Part shown: in pieces, positions 1-9,720 of the stretch | How the letters are laid out: each line of letters starts with the position of its first letter | Numbering within the stretch: the first letter of the stretch is position 1 | DNA from: Streptomyces sp. I6 | Lineage (GTDB): Bacteria > Actinomycetota > Actinomycetes > Streptomycetales > Streptomycetaceae | Assembly: GCA_003725745.1 (NCBI GenBank) | Contig: RHDP01000001.1 | Coordinates: forward strand, 2,381,001-2,445,000 | Direction: 5' to 3' | Length of the DNA stretch: 64,000 bases | Position numbers and translations under genes: made by a program | Notes under the pieces: model-generated | What the model was told of the DNA's origin: nothing | The model's database searches: none | The model's input: only the letters and a program-made list of their open reading frames with translations

Positions 1-2039
1 CACCGGGGTGCCGCTGCGGCGGCGCAGCTCCAGCGTGTTCACCCGGCTGTCGTGCGCCAGTTCCAGCTCCTCCAGCGGTACGCACGGACCGGACCGGCGC
101 GGCGCGGTGGGCCAGTGCAGCGACGTGGGGAGGACACCGCAGCTGTCCCCCTGCAGGGGATTGACCTCGCGGGCCGGGACGAACTCCAGGCACTCGGCGT
201 CCGGATACAGCGTGCGCACCCAGGCGCGGAGCCGTTCGGCGAAGCCCGCCCCGCGCGGGCCCCCGGTGGACTCGTACAACCGGTGGAAGCGGGCGACCAG
301 CCCTCCCGTACCCGACGAGACCTGGTTGACGACGAGGAGCGGGCCGTCGTCGTACTCCTCGCAGTCCTGGTAGACGACGGCGACCGAGGGCAGGCAACTC
401 GACCGCCCCGGACGGGCGGGGCGGGCCGTGCCGGGGGTGGGACCGAAAGCGGCCCCGGGGTCTTCGGTGCCACCGGGAGCACCGCGCCCGGCGGGGCCCC
501 CGGGCTGGCCGGGGATTGCGGGCCCGCCGGGGATTCCGAAAGCGGCCAGCTCCTGAAAGAAGCCGAACACGTCGTCGCAGACACCGTCCGGGCCGAACCG
601 CGCCACGAACGCGTCGGTGAGCGCCTGGTACTCGGGAGACACCCGCAGGCTGTCGCACGCGGCCCCGGCATGGCGCCGCAGAACCGCGGCCCGCTCGTCG
701 TCCCGGGGCGGGCCGGGAGGGTGCCCGCCCGGTCCTCGTAGACCAGGGTCACCTCGCGCAGCGGCCAGTCGTCCGCGGCTCCGAGCGCGTCGAGGGTCTC
801 CTCCAGCGCTTCGCGCAGCCGCGCCAGGCCGGCGGCCCGGGCCGCCGGGCCGCCGCCGGCGATGGTCGCCAGCTCGCCCGTGGCGGTCAGCAGCCGCCCC
901 GCCGCCCGGCGGTCCGACGGATCGGGGGACGCGGCCAGTGCAGCGGCGACCCAGTCCAGGAGCCGGTCCTGCGGACAGGGGTCGTCGATGTCCAGCAGAC
1001 CGGCCTCCAGGTACCGGGCCAGCCGGACGGCGGGCAGTCCCCGCGGATCCCGCAGGGCGGCGAACAGGTCCTCCCTTCCGCCGGCGTCCAGGACCTCGTC
1101 GTCCGACCAGGCCCAGCCGTCGGTCACCGACTGCCGGGGCTCGCTCAGCCGGGCGGTGGGGCCCGCGGCGCGCAGGGAGCCGTTGACCCGCCAGCGGACC
1201 AGGCCGCGCACCCCGTCCCGGACCGCCGCGGCCCGCAGCAGCACCCGGCCGACCAGGGGGTGCAAGGAGACCCGGACCCGTGCGCCGTGGTCCGCTCCCG
1301 GGACGGCGACATGGGTGAGCGACGACAGCGGGCTGGCCTTGAGCGCGGACCGTACGGCGTACCCGTACGCGGTGAGGCGTTCCCCCCGGTCCAGCGGCCG
1401 CCCGCCCGGCTGCCGCACGCGGCGGGAGAACACGGGTGAGACCAGCGCCAGCGCGCCGGACACCGCGGGCAGGCCCATGAGGTGCCGCAGCGTCCGCTCC
1501 TCGGCCGGTTCCGCGGCCCCGGCACGCAGCCGCAGCAGCTGCCGCAGCCCGGCGAGGGCCCCGGCCCGTTCCACCCAGCGTTCCAGTGCCGAGGTGTCCC
1601 TCGGCATCGGCGCGAGTGCCTCGCGGACCAGTGCGAACAGCTCCGGCGCCACGGGGTCCGGCCGTCCGGCGTGCGCCGCCCTCCGCCAGCGCAGCACCGA
1701 CCGGCGCGCGCCGGTGGTCGGCATCAGCGGTACGGCGTCGTACAGCAGTCCGGTCACCGCCGGTGCCAGGGCGGCCAGTTCCCGGCGGGCCGCGGCGATC
1801 CGGTCCAGGACCTCGGCGACCTGCTCGGCCGCCAGGGGTGCCACGTCGGCCGCCGGAAGCCCGGCGACCCTGCTCAGGGCCGGGCCCTCGGCCAGGAGGT
1901 GTCCGGCGGCAGGTGTGTCCACGGCCGGCGTCGCGGTCGGGAGACGCGTGGCGGTCGGGGCCTGCGCCGCCGCGGAGGGCTGCGCCACCGCCGGAACCCG
2001 GGGCGAGGGCGAGGGCTGCCTCTCGGTCGAGGTCGTCAT
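1..2039 (-). CDS. LanB-type lantibiotic dehydratase, partial at window edge, one frameshift
   Basis: Starts at ATG 2039, whose bases overlap the stop of the upstream protease gene (TGATG), and runs off the left edge, so about 679 residues are visible. It resembles the N-terminal domain of lantibiotic/thiopeptide dehydratases, which glutamylate Ser/Thr of a precursor peptide as the first step to dehydroamino acids; typical text is SPVFSRRVR, AYGYAVRSALKASPLSSLTHVAV and LPAVRLARYLEAGLLDIDDP. Near position 704-725 the frame shifts by one lost base in a C/G run; below it the other frame continues sensibly (DDERAAVLRRHAGA, then EYQALTDAFVARFG). The first 60 residues are an Ala/Pro/Thr-rich tail. 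Neighbouring YcaO, E1-like and SagB genes place it in a hybrid azoline/dehydroamino acid pathway. Family is fairly sure; whether the frameshift is real is doubtful. Confidence 0.75.
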
Positions 2040-3178
2040 CACGCGCCCCCGAACAGCACCAGCAGGGAACGTACGCAGAACACCGCGACGAGCAGCGCGT
2101 AGGCCAGGCAGACGACTCCGAACACCTGGTAGCGCAGTTGCCGGGAGCGGCTCCGCACGGCGAGCCAGCTCGGCGGCGGCTCCCGCAGCACCCGGCACCG
2201 CAGCGCGGTGAAGGCGCGCGAGCGCAGGTTCAGTGTGCCCATGGCCGACTCCAGCGCGTGGTATCCGTCGGTGGGGAGCAGCGGGTTCAGGTTCGCCAGC
2301 AGCAGGCCGATCTGCAGCCAGACCATCAGCACGCAGAGCTGCCCGAACTGGCCCTCGGCGTACCTCGACAGTGCCGACCAGCCACCCAGCCACAGCACGT
2401 CCTGGGCCACTCCGGCCAGGGCGATGACCACCCGGGACCCGCGGCCGGGGAGCCGGTGGGCGTCGGTGCGGTCCACATAGGCCACGGGGACCAGGTAGAA
2501 GAGGAGGCCGACGCCGATCTCCCGGACGGGGACGCCGTAGTAGCGGCAGGCCAGTCCGTGGGACAGTTCGTGCAGCCCGGTCTGCAGCAGCATGCTGCAG
2601 ACGACGATCGTCCAGCCCCACACCGGGAGGGACAGGTCCGGCCCGCCGGACGCGAGGGGAGCGGCGAGCACCGACCCCGCACCCCACACGGCAAAGACGG
2701 CGGCGGCCGTCCAGAGGAGGCCGAACGGGAGCGGTGCGCGGCGGAGCAGCGCGGCGGGCGGGTCCAGCACGGCGTTGACCCGGGAGCCCACCAGCGGCCG
2801 GCGAGGCATGTGACTGCGGCGTGCGAAGCGCACGGCCGAGGTGTCCCGGCCGCCGTCCGGGGGCACGCTCAGCAGTCCGGCGGCGCGCAGTTCCCCGAGG
2901 AAGTCCAGCACCACCTGCTGGGTGGAGCCGTCACCGCCTCCCGTGCGCGAGGCGCGGGCGGCGAACTCCCGCCCGGTCATGGAGCCGTCGAGGGCCGTGA
3001 GGATCGCGGCCCCGCTCTTCGACAGCCGGGTGTAGTGGCCGCTGACCGGGTCGTAGGCGAGCGGTTCGTGGTGCAGACCCTCGGTGATCTCGACGTCGGG
3101 GCGCATGGTCGGGCGCTCGGTGTCGAGCCAGGACGGCTCAGCGCTGCCGGAGGCGACGTCGGTGGACGGGGCGGTCAT
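2039..3178 (-). CDS. M50-family membrane metalloprotease with N-terminal PqqD-like domain
   Basis: 379 residues. Residues about 28-105 resemble the PqqD/RiPP-recognition winged helix (EPLAYDPVSGHYTRLSKSG, then a helix-rich tail). Residues 150-375 form several hydrophobic segments with the zinc motif HELSH at 203-207 and a second ligand site NPLLPTDGY at about 298-306, both typical of intramembrane M50 peptidases. The ATG overlaps the stop of the upstream nitroreductase-like gene (TGATG), and its own stop overlaps the LanB start, so it is translationally coupled in the RiPP operon. Inferred role: binding the leader of the modified precursor through the PqqD domain and cutting it at the membrane during export. 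The HExxH motif is seen directly; the substrate is inference. Confidence 0.8.
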   Translation of the reverse strand: MTAPSTDVASGSAEPSWLDTERPTMRPDVEITEGLHHEPLAYDPVSGHYTRLSKSGAAILTALDGSMTGREFAARASRTGGGDGSTQQVVLDFLGELRAAGLLSVPPDGGRDTSAVRFARRSHMPRRPLVGSRVNAVLDPPAALLRRAPLPFGLLWTAAAVFAVWGAGSVLAAPLASGGPDLSLPVWGWTIVVCSMLLQTGLHELSHGLACRYYGVPVREIGVGLLFYLVPVAYVDRTDAHRLPGRGSRVVIALAGVAQDVLWLGGWSALSRYAEGQFGQLCVLMVWLQIGLLLANLNPLLPTDGYHALESAMGTLNLRSRAFTALRCRVLREPPPSWLAVRSRSRQLRYQVFGVVCLAYALLVAVFCVRSLLVLFGGA

Positions 3179-3969
3179 CACCGCTCCCCGGTACGGTCGG
3201 CCGGTGCCGGTGCCGGTGCCGGTGCCGGGGCGGACCGGACCGGACGGGGGGAGCCGAGGGCCAGTCCGATCAGCTGTGCCCGGCCGGACCCGTCGATGCC
3301 CAGATGGGTGCGTCCCGCCGCACCGAGCACACCGGCGAACACGGAGCCGGCGGCTCCGAGGGAGAGGGCCGCGAGCCACGTGGCGTGGGCCAGCGCCGCG
3401 CCGCGCGCCAGCAGCAGCCGGTGGCCCCCCGCCCCGTGCCGTTCGGCGGTCGCCGCCAGGTCGCCGTGGACCACTACCAGGGCCGGGGCATCGCCGAACT
3501 CCAGTTGCAGCACGAGGTCGGCGAGCGGCGGCAGGTCGCGCGGCTCGGGCTCCAGCCGCCGCTCCCCGGGGACATAGTGGTGGCAGCCGTCCGGAACGCC
3601 CAGGAGCCGCTGGACCAGTACGGTCGCGGACGGCGCCGGGAGTGTGGGGAAGGCCGGCCGCCACAGCCGCTCGTCCTGCTCGAAGGCGTAACCGAGGGCC
3701 TGGACGAGGACGTCCCCGTCCAGGGGTTCGGGTGCCCAGTGCCGCTGGGCGGTGCGGCGGCGCAGCGCCTGGACGGGGTCGCCGGGCAGTGGGGGAGCCG
3801 CGCCGGGCCGGAAGCCGGCGGTGGCGGTGGACGCCGTGGCGGCCGTGGCGGTGGACACGGTGGCGGACGCGGTGGCCGTGGTGGCGGACGCGGTGGCCGT
3901 GGTGGCGGACGCGGTGGGCGGTGCGGCCAGCAGCTCCTCGGTGAGGCGGGCCGTGTCGATCAGCGGCAC
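3178..3969 (-). CDS. Degenerate SagB-type nitroreductase-like protein
   Basis: 263 residues from GTG 3969, overlapping the end of the upstream fused gene by 10 bases and coupled to the protease by TGATG. After a 40-residue Ala/Thr/Ser tract encoded by tandem repeats, the body (ALRRRTAQRHWAPEPLDGD..., LLLARGAALAHATWLAALSLGAAG..., IGLALG) follows the nitroreductase/SagB fold. The Lys-Tyr pair seen in active azoline dehydrogenases is replaced (ERHGAGGHR), so it may be a non-catalytic partner of the SagB domain encoded just upstream. It ends in a Pro-Ala repeat. Could be mistaken for a complete dehydrogenase; I think the family is right but activity unlikely. Confidence 0.65.
   Translation of the reverse strand: MPLIDTARLTEELLAAPPTASATTATASATTATASATVSTATAATASTATAGFRPGAAPPLPGDPVQALRRRTAQRHWAPEPLDGDVLVQALGYAFEQDERLWRPAFPTLPAPSATVLVQRLLGVPDGCHHYVPGERRLEPEPRDLPPLADLVLQLEFGDAPALVVVHGDLAATAERHGAGGHRLLLARGAALAHATWLAALSLGAAGSVFAGVLGAAGRTHLGIDGSGRAQLIGLALGSPRPVRSAPAPAPAPAPADRTGER
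3823..3921. repeat. 21-bp in-frame tandem repeat inside nitroreductase-like gene
   Basis: Three near-perfect 21-bp units at 3859-3921, preceded by degenerate copies back to about 3823. They encode the Ala/Thr/Ser-rich N-terminal tract of the SagB-like protein. Because the unit is seven codons, copy-number change would keep the reading frame. Confidence 0.85.
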
Positions 3970-5717
3970 GAGCCGCTCCCTTCGTCGTGGAGCCGAACGG
4001 CGGCGGTGATGAGCGCGGGCCCGGCGGCACCCACGAGGAGTTCCCGGTGCCGTTGCAGGGGGTGGGGGTCGAGCAGGCCGTGCGCCAGCCCGATCGCCCG
4101 GGCCGTGAGAGCGAGCTGGGCCAGCGCGCATCCGGTGTCGAGGTTCCCCACGCGGTAGGCGAAGGGACCGTACTTCCGGGCGACGCGGCCGACGTCCGAG
4201 GCGAGGACCAGGTGCACGCCGGGCCGTGTCCCGCCGTCCTCGGCTTCCCCGCCCAGTGCCGCGAGGAGGGTGCCGAGGTGTTCGGTGTGGGGGTGCATGG
4301 CGGTGAGCGCGTGGTCGGCGGCGTCGTAGTAGTGGACGCCGTCGGGGAGGCCGGGGACGTCCCGGAGCAGCGCGTAGACATGGGGGGAGCCCAGGTTGCC
4401 GCCGGTCGGGGCCCACCGGTTGACCCGGGTGGGGTCGGTGGACTCCCCCTCGTCGCCGGGGCCGCGCAGCCCGGCGGTGAAGCGCATCAGCGCCGCCAGG
4501 GCTTCCGGCCACGGTGGCGGTTCCGCGCCGGCGGTGAGCTTCTCCAGGTCCGCCAGGGAAGCGTCGGGCAGCGGAAGCCGCGGGTTGTTGGGGTACCTCA
4601 GCCGCTCGAACTGGAGCCCGACGTTCTCCGGGCGGAAGTGGTGCTGGTGCGCCTTGGGGTTGACCAGATGCCGGGGAGGGAAGGCCACGGCGTGCTCGTA
4701 GTGCAGCGGCCCGTCCTCCGGGAGGCCGTCGCGACCCGCGGCGGTCGGGTAGCAGGCACGGCAACCGACTTCGGGGGTCAGTTTGTACGTGGTGGTGGAC
4801 AGGTCCGCGAGGTCCACCACGAGCCGCCCGCCGAGGGACTGGACCGGCTCGCCCCGCAGCAGCAGGGCCCGCAGTTCCTCGGCGATCAGTCCGGCCGCGG
4901 TCGCCGCGCCCGGGGTGGGGGCCGCGTCCAGGAACTCCTCGGGTGGCAGGGGCCGGAGCGCGACGGCGCCACGGGCGCAGTGCGCGCAGGCGGTCGCCGA
5001 CGGGTCCACCAGGGGCCCCACGGCGACCCGTCCGTCCCGCTCGTCCGCCAGCAGCAGCCGGCTGCCGCGCCGGGCGCTCTCCTCGACGATCCGGTCGACC
5101 GTCGCGCGGGGCGCCGCGAGGTCGGCCACGACCAGTGCGTCCTCGGGTGCCTCCTCGCCGGGCGCGAGCGGGAGCACATCGGTGATCCCGAGATCGGCCA
5201 GTGCCGTCCGCAGGGGCTGCTGCCAGGACGCCCGTACGCTCAGCCGCACCCGGGCCCGTGCCGCGGCGAGCGCCGCATGGCTGGAATGGGGGTGGACGCG
5301 GGCGCAGTCCAGCGTCCGCGACATCCAGACCGCGGCCGGCTCCGACGGCCCGTCGCCCTCCGGTGGGGGTACGGTCTGTGCCGCGTCCTCCAGCACCCCG
5401 GCGAAGTAGAGGGTGGCGACGGCCTGGTGGACGGCCGAGTCGCTCCAGCCGGTCGCCCGGGCCAGCCCGGCGATGTCCCGGCTGCCGTCCAGGAGGGGCA
5501 GCAGGAGCCGCCGGAGGGCCGAGGCCGAGGCGCCGCGCAGATGCTGGCGTTCGGCGCCTCCGTCGATGACCACGCCGTCCGGTGTGTCGACCACATGGAG
5601 CCCCCGGCAGAGCTGCGGGCGGGCGGGAAGGCGGAACTGGGGATCGGTGCTCACGGCCGCGGCGACGACCGCCGCGGGCGTGCCGCGCTGTCCCGGCTCG
5701 CTGACGAGGGCGCTCAC
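3960..5717 (-). CDS. E1-like/SagB fusion: TOMM leader-binding domain plus azoline dehydrogenase
   Basis: 585 residues from GTG 5717, overlapping the previous stop by 4 bases (GTGA). The N-terminal half is a cyclodehydratase C/ocin-ThiF-like region: a winged-helix peptide-binding part (residues about 25-120), an E1-like alpha/beta part and two CxxC pairs (CAHC, CRAC) expected to bind structural zinc. The C-terminal half is a SagB/McbC FMN dehydrogenase: WAPTGGNLGSPHVYAL, the GVHYYD turn, and KYGPFAYRVGNLDTGCALAQLAL with the Lys-Tyr pair of active enzymes. Predicted to hold the precursor leader and oxidise thiazolines/oxazolines made by the YcaO partner to azoles. The fusion order couples heterocycle formation and oxidation in one chain. 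Confidence 0.82.
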   Translation of the reverse strand: MSALVSEPGQRGTPAAVVAAAVSTDPQFRLPARPQLCRGLHVVDTPDGVVIDGGAERQHLRGASASALRRLLLPLLDGSRDIAGLARATGWSDSAVHQAVATLYFAGVLEDAAQTVPPPEGDGPSEPAAVWMSRTLDCARVHPHSSHAALAAARARVRLSVRASWQQPLRTALADLGITDVLPLAPGEEAPEDALVVADLAAPRATVDRIVEESARRGSRLLLADERDGRVAVGPLVDPSATACAHCARGAVALRPLPPEEFLDAAPTPGAATAAGLIAEELRALLLRGEPVQSLGGRLVVDLADLSTTTYKLTPEVGCRACYPTAAGRDGLPEDGPLHYEHAVAFPPRHLVNPKAHQHHFRPENVGLQFERLRYPNNPRLPLPDASLADLEKLTAGAEPPPWPEALAALMRFTAGLRGPGDEGESTDPTRVNRWAPTGGNLGSPHVYALLRDVPGLPDGVHYYDAADHALTAMHPHTEHLGTLLAALGGEAEDGGTRPGVHLVLASDVGRVARKYGPFAYRVGNLDTGCALAQLALTARAIGLAHGLLDPHPLQRHRELLVGAAGPALITAAVRLHDEGSGSCR

Positions 5718-6373
5718 CGCTCGCCTCCCGCCGCGGTGCCCGTGGCGAGCGGCAGCTCGTCGGCGAGCCACCGCCAGCCGTCGTCCGGGTCCACCGGCGT
5801 GCCGCACTCCTCGCAGCCGTGGACGCCGATGACCGTGTCGGAGAACAGCGACCGGCTCAGCATGTTGTAGAAGGTCACCTGCCCGGGTACGGCACCGTCG
5901 CCGGTGCGGTAGCGGGTGAGGAGGTCCACGGCGAGGCCGGCCGCGATCATGGCCTGCGCGTCGGTGAACCCGGCGATCCCGTGGCCGGGGTCGGCCGCCC
6001 TCGACTCCTGCAGGGCCCGGGAGACCTCGCGCCCCCGCTCGTGCTGGGTCCGGCGCCGGGTGTAGCAGGAGTGGCAGGGGCCCTCGCCCGGCACGACCAG
6101 GGGGCCGATCCTGATGAGGGGGAACTCCTGGACGACCGGGAGCCAGGTCGTGCGGCACGCGCTGTGCAACCGGGCGACCCCCTCCAGGAGTGCGGGTTCG
6201 TCCCGCCAGAGGGCGAGCACGCGGAGCGTGGTGTGGGGCCACTCGGCGGACCGGCTCCCGAGGGCGTCGGCGGTGGCGGAGGGCCAGTCGGTGAGCGCGG
6301 TCAGGTGGTCGGCGACCCTCCTGCCGAACGTCCCGGTCCACAGGATGTGCGCGGGTGCGGTGGTGAACGGCAC
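5714..6373 (-). CDS. Short E1-like TOMM leader-peptide binding protein
   Basis: 219 residues from GTG 6373; the ribosome site AGGAGAG overlaps the YcaO stop 12 bases upstream. It resembles the truncated E1/ThiF-like proteins of thiazole/oxazole-modified peptide clusters: an N-terminal alpha/beta part (HILWTGTFGRRVADHL, TTLRVLALWRDEP) and two zinc-type CxxC pairs (CHSC near residue 101, CEEC near 191). There is no ATP-binding loop of true E1 enzymes, so it probably acts as scaffold and leader receptor for YcaO. It is the second gene of the operon, and a related domain is repeated in the next gene, so the system carries two E1-like modules. Confidence 0.75.
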   Translation of the reverse strand: MPFTTAPAHILWTGTFGRRVADHLTALTDWPSATADALGSRSAEWPHTTLRVLALWRDEPALLEGVARLHSACRTTWLPVVQEFPLIRIGPLVVPGEGPCHSCYTRRRTQHERGREVSRALQESRAADPGHGIAGFTDAQAMIAAGLAVDLLTRYRTGDGAVPGQVTFYNMLSRSLFSDTVIGVHGCEECGTPVDPDDGWRWLADELPLATGTAAGGER

Positions 6374-6385
6374 GGCGGTTCTCTC

Positions 6386-7750
6386 CTAGGCGAAGGGCTG
6401 CGGGTGGGGGTTGAGTGCGTGTTCCGGGTGACTGGTGAGCCCCATCGCGACCGGTGCCCGGTAGAGCCGGGGGTGCGCCAGGTAGCGGTTGCGGTGCACG
6501 AAGGACAGCGGCATCAGCTGGGGTACGACCACCCGTACCGAGCGGAGTCCGGCGCGCCGGGCCTCGTCCGTCGTCAGCTCCACCGCGATCACCTCGGCGT
6601 CCACCGCGGCCAGCCGCTCCACCAGCCAGGACAGCTGCCGTTCCGGAGGGCCGGCCGGTGCCCGCGGGAGGTCCGCGGGCACCCGGGTGGTGCGCTGCCC
6701 GCTCAGCAGGAAGTCGAAGGCGTCACGCCGCTCGGGGCGCCCCATGTGGAGGGCGCCGTGCAGCACACTGGTGAAGTCCCGCGGGTCCTCGGGGACGGTG
6801 TGCGGGGCCTGCAGGGCGATGCGCGAGGAGGCCGCCTCCCGGTAGATCTTGCGGATGACCTCGGCGGGGTCGGTCCCGGTCGCGCACATCACGAGCTGGC
6901 CCAGGGTGTCGTTGTGGTCGCTGAGCACGACCGCGTAGACCGTGGGAACGCCCACGTCCGTGGTGGCGTCGTAGAAGCGGTACTCCACGAAGCCGTCCCT
7001 GACCCGCCGGTGCTGCTCCCGCAGGGACGGCTCGCCGGCGACGTCGATCTCCGGCAGTTCGAGGCGCTGGAGCCAGACCAGCGCGATCGCGTCGCGTTCG
7101 ATCGCCTCGCAGATACCGTTCACCAGCGCCTGGTGCAGATCCGAGTGGATCGCGCAGCCGGTCGAGATGGGGTTGGCGATCCGCTCTCCCATCGCCTCGT
7201 GCGCGGTGAACAGCCAGACGTAGGACGCGGGGATCCAGACCGGGCGGCTGCGGGTGAGCGACCAGCCGCGCACCCAGCGCTGCGGCAGCGAACTGTCGGG
7301 GTGGATCAGCCAGTTCGCCTCGTCGGACAGCTCCGTCTCCGAGCAGCGCGGGAGCGCGTCGAGGTCGACCGCCTCGTCGCCGAGCTCGTCCGCGGTCGCC
7401 CAGCGCACCAGTTGCGGCTGGTAGAAGGAGTTGGTGTAGCGCTCCAGGGCCTCGGCGACACTGATCAGCCGGGCCCGCTCGGGGTCGGTGCCGCCTCCGG
7501 CACCGTCCAGCCCCTGGGGCTGGGCGGGGGTGTCGGACCAGAGGGCGGTGGGGTCGCCGATGGACGAGACGAAGACCGAGTAGGGGGGCTCGCCCGGCAG
7601 GTTGGGAAGGAGCTGGGACCCCCGCACCGGCCGCCCGGCAGGCCCGACGACGGCCTCCAGCCGCCGGAGCCCGGCGAGGTCGTCCTCCGTCGCGCCGTCC
7701 CCCCGGTCCGCGGCGGCGGTCCGGTCGTCCCTCGCACGTGCATCCAGCAC
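6386..7750 (-). CDS. YcaO-domain azoline cyclodehydratase
   Basis: 454 residues. YcaO enzymes use ATP to cyclise Cys, Ser or Thr side chains onto the peptide backbone. Seen here: ARLISVAEALERYTNSFY, PISTGCAIHSDLHQALVNGICEAIERDA with the acidic ATP/Mg ligands, VYAVVLSDHNDTLGQLVMC, and the C-terminal proline-rich tail PHPQPFA that matters for catalysis in this family. The start is GTG 7750, chosen for a perfect AGGAGG six bases upstream; the frame stays open for another 124 codons upstream through a repeat array but without a ribosome site. First enzyme of the operon; the regulator upstream is on the same strand. Confidence 0.88.
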   Translation of the reverse strand: MLDARARDDRTAAADRGDGATEDDLAGLRRLEAVVGPAGRPVRGSQLLPNLPGEPPYSVFVSSIGDPTALWSDTPAQPQGLDGAGGGTDPERARLISVAEALERYTNSFYQPQLVRWATADELGDEAVDLDALPRCSETELSDEANWLIHPDSSLPQRWVRGWSLTRSRPVWIPASYVWLFTAHEAMGERIANPISTGCAIHSDLHQALVNGICEAIERDAIALVWLQRLELPEIDVAGEPSLREQHRRVRDGFVEYRFYDATTDVGVPTVYAVVLSDHNDTLGQLVMCATGTDPAEVIRKIYREAASSRIALQAPHTVPEDPRDFTSVLHGALHMGRPERRDAFDFLLSGQRTTRVPADLPRAPAGPPERQLSWLVERLAAVDAEVIAVELTTDEARRAGLRSVRVVVPQLMPLSFVHRNRYLAHPRLYRAPVAMGLTSHPEHALNPHPQPFA

Positions 7751-7756
7751 TGGCTG

Positions 7757-7762
7757 CCTCCT
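7757..7762 (-). promoter_or_regulatory. Ribosome binding site of the YcaO gene
   Basis: AGGAGG on the minus strand, six bases before GTG 7750. It decides the start, excluding the long upstream in-frame extension through the 36-bp repeats. Confidence 0.8.
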
Positions 7763-8175
7763 GTCATCCGTGCGCAGCGATCGGCTGAAGCCAACCGGTG
7801 GGCCGGTGGAGGAGGCATCACGCGTCGGGGGTGAAACGCGTTCCGGGGGCTGGACGGCGTGAGGGTGACGGAGCATCACCCGTCGTGCGAGGCGACGTGG
7901 CGGGCACTCCCACGCCGGGCGGCACCGCACACCCACCGGACGCCCCCACGCCGGGCAGCACCACACACCCACCGGACGCCCCCACGCCGGGCAGCACCAC
8001 ACACCCACCGGACGCCCACACCCCGGGCAGCACCACACACCCACCGGACACCCACACCCCAGGCAGCACCCCACCGCACACCCACCGGACACCCACACCC
8101 CAGGCAGCACCCCACCGCACACCGGCGTCGGCGACCGGGGAGCGTGGTCCCGGCGCCGGCGGGGGCCGTGCGGGA
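7763..8175. other. Non-coding stretch between regulator and YcaO gene
   Basis: Apart from the 36-bp repeat array (7909-8123) I see no supported gene here. It should hold the promoter of the RiPP operon. A Cys-rich frame crosses it in phase with YcaO but lacks a ribosome site. No plausible precursor peptide gene was found on either strand. Confidence 0.5.
7909..8123. repeat. 36-bp tandem repeat array, about six copies
   Basis: Units of 36 bp (CCCACGCCGGGCAGCACCAC start the second copy) diverge progressively to the right; the fifth is 41 bp and the sixth is cut at 31. On the minus strand, in phase with YcaO, each 36-bp unit reads as 12 residues with a CC pair and two Trp (for example VWCCPAWGRPVG). 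Probably a minisatellite in the operon leader; a coding role cannot be excluded. Confidence 0.85.
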
Positions 8176-8194
8176 TCAGCCCCGGGGGCTGATC
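8174..8194. terminator. Perfect 10-bp inverted repeat overlapping the stop of the LuxR gene
   Basis: GATCAGCCCC, one base, GGGGCTGATC. The stem overlaps the last codons and TGA of the regulator, so it may end its transcript before the YcaO operon. No T run follows, as is common in high-GC actinomycetes. Confidence 0.5.
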
Positions 8195-9720
8195 AGGCCG
8201 CGCTCCGCGGCGACCCGGACCGCGTCGCGTCTGCGGCCGACCTGCAGCTTGCGGTAGACGGCCTGTACCTGCGTCTTGACGGTGTTGAGGGACACGTGGC
8301 GGCGGGCGGCGATCTCGTCCAGCGTCAGGCCGAGCGGCAGCAGCCGCAGGACGTCGAGCTCGCTGCGCGTCAGCGAGTCGGCGGCCGCGTACGGCCCGGG
8401 GCCCGTTGCGGCCGCCTCACCGGGGGACGGCTGAGCGTGTGACAGACGGGGTGACAGGGCGGGTGACAGAGCGGGTGACGGCGCGGGTGACTGGGCGGCG
8501 TCACCCGCGGGCACCCAGAGGGACGCTCCCCCACCGGCGCGCCCCAGTCCCGGCGGGAGGAGGATGCCGCCCCCCGGCGCGGGCCCCGCCGCGTGGGCCT
8601 GGGCGGCTGCCGCGTACCTCCGGGCGGCGGACGCCGCACCCATGTCCTCGTACCAGCGGGCCGCCTTGCCCAGCAGGCGGCTCACCTCGGGCCAGCCGTA
8701 CCGCTCGGCGAGTTCCCTCGAGAGCACCCCGCGCATCAGCGGATTGGGCAGCCGGTAGGTCCACTCGTCGTCGCGCACCAGCAGGTCGTGCTCGGTGGAC
8801 AGCCTGCGCAGCACCCGGTTGAGGTCGGCCCGGCCCGTCAGGGCGCGCAGCAGGGACGCGCTGAACCCGCCGAGCAGACTGGTACGCAGCAGCACGTCCT
8901 GGTCGTCCGTCGGCATCGGGTCGAGCAGTTCCGACAGCAGGAAGTCGGAGCAGTGGCGGATGGCCTGGGACCACCCCTCGAGGCAGGAGCGGGGGTCACT
9001 GCCCCGGACCGGGTTGACCGAGGCGTAGCGGACCGCCAGGGCCCAGCCTCCCGAGCATCGGACCACGGCGGCGACCTGGTCGTCACCGGCCTCCGCTCCG
9101 TGCGCCCGGAACAGCTCGGCCGTCTCCGCGTGGGTGAACGCGAGATCCGCGCCCCTGATCTCGGTGAGTTCGCCGCCCGCGCGGAGCTTGTGGAGCGGCA
9201 GGTCGGGTTCCCTCCGGCTGGCGAGCACCACGCTCAGGCCGCCCGGCGCGTAGCGGGCGAACTGCAGCAGGGCACTGCGCGCCGGCCCGGGCCTCAGCTC
9301 GTGGAAGGCGTCGACGACGAGGACGAGCGGATGCGGATGCCCGGATACCTCGTCCAGCAGGGCCGGCACACTCACCCCGTCGCTGAAGCGGAGCGCCTCG
9401 TCGCCCCGGGAGGCGGTGGCACGGGTCAGGGCCGCGGCGAGATGGGTGAGGAGCCGGGGGGCATGGTTGTCGTCGGCGTCGAGGGTGAGCCACGCCGGCT
9501 CGCCCAGCGGCAGTGATCCGGCCCAGGAGGCCAGGAGCGCGCTCTTGCCCGCCCCTGGCGGACCGACCACGAGGGTGAGCCGTCTCGTCACTCCCCTGTC
9601 GAGCGTCCGGAACAGCCGGGGACGGTCGAGAAGGGGGCCGAGCACGGGCGGTATGAGTCGTGTGTGGAGCACGGAATGGGTGCCTTCTGCGGAGGGCCCG
9701 CTGCGGCTGTGCCCGACCAT
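8176..9720 (-). CDS. MalT-like AAA/LuxR-family transcriptional regulator of the RiPP cluster
   Basis: 514 residues from ATG 9720, preceded by AGGAGAG seven bases away. Residues 53-60 are a Walker A loop (GPPGAGKS) followed by LVLVVDAFHEL as Walker B, in a STAND/AAA module that ends near residue 370. After a Ser/Pro/Ala repeat-rich linker (about 395-435, containing SPALSPALSP) comes a C-terminal LuxR helix-turn-helix, LTRSELDVLRLLPLGLTLDEIAARRHVS and NTVKTQVQAVYRKL. It lacks the long TPR region of large LAL regulators. Same strand and directly upstream of the YcaO operon, so a pathway activator is the likely role; the ligand is unknown. Confidence 0.82.
   Translation of the reverse strand: MVGHSRSGPSAEGTHSVLHTRLIPPVLGPLLDRPRLFRTLDRGVTRRLTLVVGPPGAGKSALLASWAGSLPLGEPAWLTLDADDNHAPRLLTHLAAALTRATASRGDEALRFSDGVSVPALLDEVSGHPHPLVLVVDAFHELRPGPARSALLQFARYAPGGLSVVLASRREPDLPLHKLRAGGELTEIRGADLAFTHAETAELFRAHGAEAGDDQVAAVVRCSGGWALAVRYASVNPVRGSDPRSCLEGWSQAIRHCSDFLLSELLDPMPTDDQDVLLRTSLLGGFSASLLRALTGRADLNRVLRRLSTEHDLLVRDDEWTYRLPNPLMRGVLSRELAERYGWPEVSRLLGKAARWYEDMGAASAARRYAAAAQAHAAGPAPGGGILLPPGLGRAGGGASLWVPAGDAAQSPAPSPALSPALSPRLSHAQPSPGEAAATGPGPYAAADSLTRSELDVLRLLPLGLTLDEIAARRHVSLNTVKTQVQAVYRKLQVGRRRDAVRVAAERGLISPRG

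Follow-up and report, generated by a model that had tools for sequence, protein, structure and literature searches.

The genome of Streptomyces sp. I6 contains an operon for ribosomally synthesized and post-translationally modified peptides (RiPPs) that, judged from sequence comparisons, very probably specifies a pathway of the goadsporin type that makes linear azole peptides resembling the spongiicolazolicins. The operon is on the minus strand at the left end of the 64,000-nucleotide stretch analyzed here (the window; genome positions 2381001–2445000 of an assembly totalling 7.05 Mb on two contigs) and extends approximately 2.7 kb beyond its left edge. Because it runs right to left past that edge, 19 kb to the left were added to the analysis; genome positions equal 2381000 plus the window position, and features to the left of the window have negative coordinates. 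The order of transcription is a regulator gene, followed by genes for a YcaO protein, an E1-like protein, an E1-like/SagB fusion, a second SagB-like protein (SagB2), a PqqD-M50 protein, a LanB protein and an elimination protein, and then the precursor genes A1, A2, A3 and A4; the LanB-type elimination protein and the four tandem precursors are encoded beyond position 1. The cluster is complete except for the reading frame of the LanB gene in this assembly.

Relationship to the spongiicolazolicin cluster

Streptomyces pacificus CWH03 (contig NZ_BLLG01000001.1) carries these genes in an identical order, and its E1/SagB fusion enzyme is 94% identical to that of strain I6. The A4 precursors of the two strains are identical at 61/61 residues, the A1 and A2 cores are unchanged, and two residues of the A3 core are substituted; a further difference between the clusters is the LanB gene, which is out of frame in the I6 assembly. 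Spongiicolazolicins A and B from CWH03 are reported to be linear, with 29 and 28 amino acids and structures deduced from nuclear magnetic resonance, tandem mass spectrometry and the gene cluster, and to have no antibacterial activity in the assays that report describes (PMC8838263); S. pacificus is called spongiicolazolicin-producing in a reference title (PMC11767043). The A1–A4 cores are 29, 28, 29 and 29 residues long when counted from a conserved Gly with an assumed cut site, in agreement with the reported 29 and 28. We consider the link to the published pathway, drawn through these similarities, to be strong but indirect. The initial annotation of the window had regarded this combination of genes as undescribed, a view not supported in light of the same gene set and near-identical precursors in CWH03, and through that indirect link CWH03 comes close to providing the same gene set in a characterized cluster.

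An alternative is that the chemistry is the same and the spongiicolazolicins derive from another part of the CWH03 genome, in which case the product of the cluster described here would be unreported. The four YcaO matches in the CWH03 genome fall into two regions, and the second (presumed to be L063–L064) contains, by reading, E1/YcaO, dehydrogenase and LanB-like genes, as this alternative expects. The likely precursor in that region, on the other strand and picked by eye from nine candidates, ends in STSCSSTSTCSSTTSTTSCSA, and its last 21 residues are all Ser, Thr or Cys except for one Ala. Nostatin A is described as built of tripeptide blocks of dehydroalanine (Dha), azole and unmodified residue, and the spongiicolazolicins as having a pattern much like it with fewer dehydrated residues, with near-identical fragmentation of spongiicolazolicin B (PMC11583998). 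The tail of the second-region precursor could not yield blocks with an unmodified third residue and so does not fit the pattern described for spongiicolazolicin B; the lengths of 29 and 28 fit A1–A4 from one conserved cut. We regard an origin of the spongiicolazolicins in the second region as improbable, and favor the CWH03 counterpart of the present operon as their source. Strain I6 also has a second YcaO region, at C1:6465733–6479984 (L065, L066).

Precursors and the core register

The four precursors all score above the cut-off of the NCBI model NF033482:

-1655 to -1816, minus strand: precursor A1; 56.3 bits (cut-off 25); core GNCAGSASTAGSFSCPGGTIGSAGSASST
-1905 to -2063, minus strand: precursor A2; 63.9 bits (cut-off 25); core GNVSSAATVGSGSCPAMTWGTASTLSSK
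-2162 to -2341, minus strand: precursor A3; 57.8 bits (cut-off 25); core GSTVGSAGSISCASCPAASVSSASTASSH
-2499 to -2684, minus strand: precursor A4; 54.6 bits (cut-off 25); core GSTVGCAATGSSISTPSGCFSSAGTASSA

Each gene has a ribosome-binding-like site ahead of it (by eye), and the leaders have in common a segment of about LDLRLDQExPELEVLP. A literature text search limited to six exact precursor strings gave no match.

The cores share a strict three-residue register. We compared 63 precursor frames from 16 loci, from which one without Pro was omitted and 16 repeats were merged to give 46 distinct cores; loci L052 and L054, with no precursor in an earlier scan, are not part of the set. The scan criteria (a Ser/Thr/Cys-rich tail, a length of 48–70 and a ribosome-binding-like site) favor peptides of this kind and not the register. 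Anchored on the central Pro, the register positions are -13, -10, -7, -4, -1, +3, +6, +9 and +12, and these are Ser/Thr/Cys in 412/414 cases, with Ser/Thr/Cys directly after a register position in just 14/414. Every Cys between -14 and +13 is in register (92/92), and as regards the thioether rings of class I lanthipeptides, all 92 Cys of the 46 cores thus sit at predicted azole positions. The four cores of the I6 operon fit at 35/36 register positions, a value reached by none of 20000 shuffles with free phase. Of a hand-picked table of 24 cores, these four alone enter the shuffle statistics; the four-paralog shuffle is the fairer test because related sequences are not independent, and the paralogs share ancestry too. 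Fifteen of the 16 loci have four precursors, and L045 has three.

The goadsporin enzymes are reported to need an X1-(S/T/C)-X2 motif and to form azoles at positions of the core such as 2, 5, 8 and 15; S4 and S14 become Dha only if the azoles directly after them (5 and 15) are in place, and the length of the central region can range from one to three (PMC5303826). The same X1-(S/T/C)-X2 motif is present in the precursors here, and the three-residue pattern is what the goadsporin rule predicts for a longer core.

A fifth NF033482 peptide is encoded outside the cluster in three of seven genomes (I6, CWH03 and G272):

C1:6915019–6915171 (L067:10020–10172): fifth precursor of I6, an orphan whose leader is of the same type, with the NF033482 peptide at 6915031–6915165; also at L088:6068–6220 and L089:6240–6392

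The orphan cores are near-identical (STVGTGSSVST[I/A]GGTAGTIGTVGCG), have no Pro, and follow the register, one slip allowed, at 8/9, 8/8 and 8/8 positions (equalled by 7, 19 and 9 of 5000 shuffles). We infer that they would be modified in trans by the cluster enzymes. The orphan gene of I6 is approximately 20 kb from a contig end amid transposase-like genes (by eye). Genome G038 has a divergent precursor set (L091 9069–10278, minus strand, in reverse-complement coordinates) with leaders such as IAIEEL and ISIEDL; its cores contain Cys-Pro, resembling the core pattern of the cluster.

Modification enzymes

The initial annotation had named a YcaO protein, two E1-like modules, two SagB-like proteins, a PqqD-M50 protein and a LanB, encoded by genes that overlap or nearly touch, and all of these are present on the minus strand, with the six enzyme genes in the window overlapping or separated by no more than 12 bases. 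Its interpretation as a RiPP operon for an azole/dehydroamino acid peptide, akin to goadsporin and thiopeptides, is supported by the gene set. Extension to the left, which it had proposed, reveals a separate elimination protein and Ser/Thr/Cys-rich precursors; the transporter expected there was not found beside the operon, where FtsE is the sole ABC (ATP-binding cassette) ATPase among the flanking proteins scanned (a Pfam scan of chosen proteins that covered small frames in part). The genes other than the precursors are:

9720–8176, minus strand: STAND ATPase/LuxR-type regulator (MalT-like); above cut-off for PF00196 (39.5 bits) and AAA_16 (35.8 bits)
7750–6386, minus strand: YcaO cyclodehydratase of the SagD family, 454 aa; TIGR03604 302.7 bits and PF02624 226 bits (scored on the longer reading 7876–6386)
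6373–5714, minus strand: E1-like leader-binding protein; TIGR03882 55.6 bits (cut-off 36.9), no Pfam match
5717–3960, minus strand: E1-like/SagB fusion; TIGR03882 38.6 (cut-off 36.9), TIGR03605 78.0 (cut-off 78.4), Pfam nitroreductase 28.9 (cut-off 23.5)
3969–3178, minus strand: SagB2; Pfam nitroreductase 25.5 (cut-off 23.5), scanned as 4017–3178
3178–2039, minus strand: PqqD-like domain and M50 intramembrane protease; M50 PF02163 39.6 (cut-off 27.2), PqqD PF05402 22.6 (cut-off 23.4)
2039 to ~690, then 642 to -548 in another frame, minus strand: LanB-type glutamylation enzyme, identified via intact relatives
-550 to -1569, minus strand: elimination protein; PF14028 120 bits, TIGR03891 82.2 bits, profile match to 5ehk (E 7.8e-20)

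The fusion of E1-like and SagB segments is borne out by the TIGR03882 and Pfam nitroreductase scores, both above cut-off, and the TIGR03605 score is 0.4 bits short. The Lys-Tyr pair K515-Y516 is invariant in 18/18 fusion proteins, and this pair is catalytic in McbC; the fusion profile matches McbC, CyaGox, TruD, LynD and MusD. By this relationship the fusion is probably the catalytic FMN (flavin mononucleotide) dehydrogenase. The description of the second SagB as degenerate also stands, with the Lys-Tyr pair absent in 16/16 SagB2 proteins, two of which retain Tyr alone at the matching motif (aligned by eye). SagB2 passes the Pfam nitroreductase cut-off only, scoring far below cut-off against TIGR04511 (18.8 bits) and TIGR03605 (11.0 bits). 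Residues 326–493 of the nitroreductase 3eo7 match the SagB2 profile (E 2e-10) and residues 17–238 match the fusion profile; the two profiles therefore fit separate parts of one protein, which suggests that the fusion and SagB2 form a split tandem or heterodimer. The SagB2 structure model is of moderate confidence (predicted local distance difference test score, pLDDT, 61.6) and its top structural match is again 3eo7 (TM-score 0.50), a fold match that, because of the moderate model, we take as backing for the sequence match. SagB2 is probably a non-catalytic partner.

The protease does carry its own putative peptide-recognition domain, as annotated, with an M50 score above cut-off and a PqqD score 0.8 bits short of it. 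The M50 residues H203, E204, H207 and D304 (HExxH and the Asp of a DG motif) are invariant in 14/14 proteins. Because M50 proteases are reported in epipeptide and pearlin pathways (PMC10885120), a role in leader removal is plausible, and by this analogy the protein is probably the leader peptidase. It resembles the daptide and epipeptide M50 proteases as an intramembrane HExxH protease in a RiPP operon, but scores below cut-off against NF041824 (138.6 bits, cut-off 300) and NF058609 (34.7 bits, cut-off 225), and those are other pathways.

The YcaO start, GTG at 7750, was set by comparison with relatives; a frame change at its N-terminus was suspected and rejected, as the relatives begin at a later codon. 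The STAND/LuxR-type protein, whose gene adjoins the operon in 5/6 close relatives (the sixth stretch begins at a contig end), is a probable pathway activator. Between the regulator and YcaO genes there is a tandem array (7911–8115) of 5.6 copies of a 36-base unit.

LanB and the elimination protein

The frame of the LanB gene changes at ~640–710 in this assembly, and both pieces are without a Pfam or NCBIfam match. The gene is a single open frame in 6/6 close relatives (L038–L043), and a profile of intact homologs matches 9jhq, annotated as 'Goadsporin biosynthetic protein' (E 6.6e-105), and 6ec7 (E 7.4e-36). A split LanB in the GodF/GodG arrangement is therefore present, with its glutamylation part recognized through the intact relatives. 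Aligned with the DNA of three relatives, the gene differs in length by one base within a G+C run, and the frame change is absent from all three, as would be the case if the operon were decayed and the strain made azole peptides without Dha, or nothing. All other genes of the operon have open frames, the precursors are conserved, and the assembly itself is probably imperfect: its completeness is listed as 87.42%, and a protein kinase gene at ~13158 (~13.16 kb) that is intact in CWH03 is split here into two frames (pieces 97% and 95% identical), the split being recognized by comparison with the CWH03 gene since the other-frame piece has no Pfam match. Because of the listed completeness and the similarly split kinase gene, the LanB frame change is likely an assembly error, and decay of the operon seems to us unlikely.

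The elimination protein is also the point at which a thiopeptide cluster has to be considered, in which this TIGR03891 protein would be a pyridine synthase and the product macrocyclic. As in the thiocillin and thiomuracin clusters there are YcaO, E1, SagB and split LanB proteins, the model that all four precursors match (4/4 above cut-off) is NCBI's 'thiocillin family' model, and the pyridine synthase model gives a weak match to the TIGR03891 protein, and in all to 8/14 members of its alignment (the protein itself counted). That match, however, is 26.9 bits to NF045556 against a cut-off of 325, no protein here scores above the cut-off (genes elsewhere in the genome were outside this search), and the operon holds a single C-terminal LanB-type protein when elimination itself needs one. 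The best solved relative of this protein by sequence is the C-terminal region of the lantibiotic dehydratase 5ehk, and the spongiicolazolicins are reported as linear (PMC8838263). The pyridine synthase score and the single C-terminal LanB-type protein led us to reject the thiopeptide interpretation, which we consider highly improbable.

Proposed pathway

From the observed gene content, conservation, residue register and sequence relationships we propose a pathway in which each chemical step, the cleavage site and export are predictions. The E1-like modules would bind the leader, and YcaO would make azolines from Ser/Thr/Cys at every third core residue, with up to five sites ending directly before the central Pro and then four beyond a slip of one residue. 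Oxidation of the azolines to azoles would fall to the fusion's SagB domain, probably in a pair with SagB2, which is predicted to be catalytically empty. The LanB protein, a relative of the goadsporin glutamylation enzyme, is predicted to glutamylate Ser directly preceding an azole, and the separate elimination protein to turn the glutamylated Ser into Dha. The PqqD-M50 membrane protease would then cut off the leader near the conserved Ser/Ala-Ala/Pro-Gly. For products with an azole at every register site, Dha at each Ser preceding one and unmodified ends, the predicted neutral monoisotopic masses are 2214.745 (A1), 2381.948 (A2), 2237.797 (A3) and 2237.786 (A4).

Several observations weigh against this goadsporin-type, spongiicolazolicin-like assignment. 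The precursor frame without Pro, from L045, has a poor register fit (7/9, matched by 293/5000 shuffles). The core length depends on the assumed cut, and counting 29 residues is also possible at the end of the precursor in the second CWH03 YcaO region. The structure model of the E1/SagB fusion, built from 4 sequences, has a mean pLDDT of 45.5. The usual LanB model, PF04738 (Lant_dehydr_N), matches 1/8 intact LanB homologs, because of which the LanB identity rests on the profile matches to 9jhq and 6ec7, and a genuine LanB frame change might mean that the strain forms no Dha. Finally, Pfam found no GodB-like transporter-peptidase or GodH-like acetyltransferase among the operon and scanned flanking proteins, the rest of the genome not having been searched.

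Comparison with known systems

The cluster shares with goadsporin a YcaO protein, an FMN dehydrogenase and a split LanB (GodF/GodG), as well as the X1-(S/T/C)-X2 azole rule and Dha on Ser preceding an azole (PMC5303826). Goadsporin comes from a single precursor, whose 19-residue core bears six azoles, whereas here there are four precursors with 8–9 predicted azoles, and the cluster has an extra SagB-like protein and a PqqD-M50 protease. The coryneazolisins are described as YcaO clusters with lanthipeptide-like dehydratases and without a [4+2] enzyme, but they are corynebacterial, with two YcaO proteins and other precursors, and are set apart by that description (PMC4603692). Dehydrazoles (PMC10676384) and nostatin A (PMC11583998) are reported to have Dha or dehydrobutyrine beside azoles, in tripeptide blocks in the case of nostatin A; their dehydratase is given as LanM-type, and that of the present cluster is LanB-type. 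No Pfam match to DUF4135, the LanM-type dehydratase, was found among the operon, LanB-homolog and flanking proteins scanned, and a dehydrazole interpretation was rejected on this ground. There is also no match to a LanC cyclase among the operon and flanking proteins scanned.

Distribution and genome context

A match to the fusion enzyme at E <= 1e-10 is present in 37/392 genomes of the genus, this one included, and a class-wide search at E <= 1e-30 finds one in 10/394 genomes (again including this one) from 6/137 genera. NF033482 precursors are present in 28/392 genus genomes at E <= 0.001, with 21 above the curated cut-off. A plasmid search gave partial matches in 5/72,556 records, with 0 covering 80%.

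We compared the best 17 loci besides that of I6, six of them close (L038–L043) and 11 distant. The close relatives have seven enzyme genes in the same order in 6/6 loci and four precursors in 6/6; because this order is kept, we regard the operon as a unit beyond chance. Matches to the fusion enzyme, SagB2, M50 and C-terminal LanB proteins are present in 9/11 distant loci, in all 9 of which precursors lie between SagB2 and M50. Of these 9, L047 begins at a contig end and is without YcaO and first E1-like (E1a) matches; there is no match to the LanB N-terminal piece in L045, L046 and L051, or to the elimination protein in L048. In L052 and L054 the ordered genes are limited to YcaO, E1a and the fusion; short SagB2 matches there fall within the fusion gene, and the opposite strand of L054 has a weak match resembling the elimination protein. 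In the fetched stretches, an ABC ATPase 28–34% identical to FtsE is near 8/11 distant loci; near the close loci it is FtsE itself alone in L038–L040, with none in L041–L043.

The left flank of the I6 operon encodes, by Pfam, a helix-turn-helix/DUF5753 and DUF397 pair, FtsE/FtsX, a PDZ/S41 protease and SmpB, and farther left a PIN protein, a major facilitator superfamily (MFS) transporter and a LysR regulator; the MFS gene is ~8 kb past the last precursor, on the opposite strand. The right flank encodes a release factor. The cluster is also between release-factor and ftsE matches in L038, L039 and L040; for L041–L043, no match of this kind turned up in the flanks retrieved.

Implications

An apparently novel operon is thus tied to a reported, little-known type of peptide. 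Since the peptide kind is already known, the strict three-residue core pattern, the four parallel precursors and the orphan precursors are the more interesting aspects. As a tentative proposal that may or may not hold, these clusters could form an actinomycete family making parallel products on a fixed scaffold, with nine azole sites in a three-residue register, one slip at the central Pro (mostly Cys-Pro), and Ser, Thr and Cys exchanged freely. Members would normally have four precursors, with fifth precursors elsewhere in some genomes modified in trans; an active and inactive SagB pair and an M50 protease would replace the single dehydrogenase and transporter-peptidase of goadsporin, and the peptides may act together. 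This raises the question of why four precursors are kept in nearly every cluster examined. The 46 distinct natural cores provide a testable core code, a ring at each third residue and Dha on Ser preceding a ring, which makes the family useful for the prediction and design of azole peptides.

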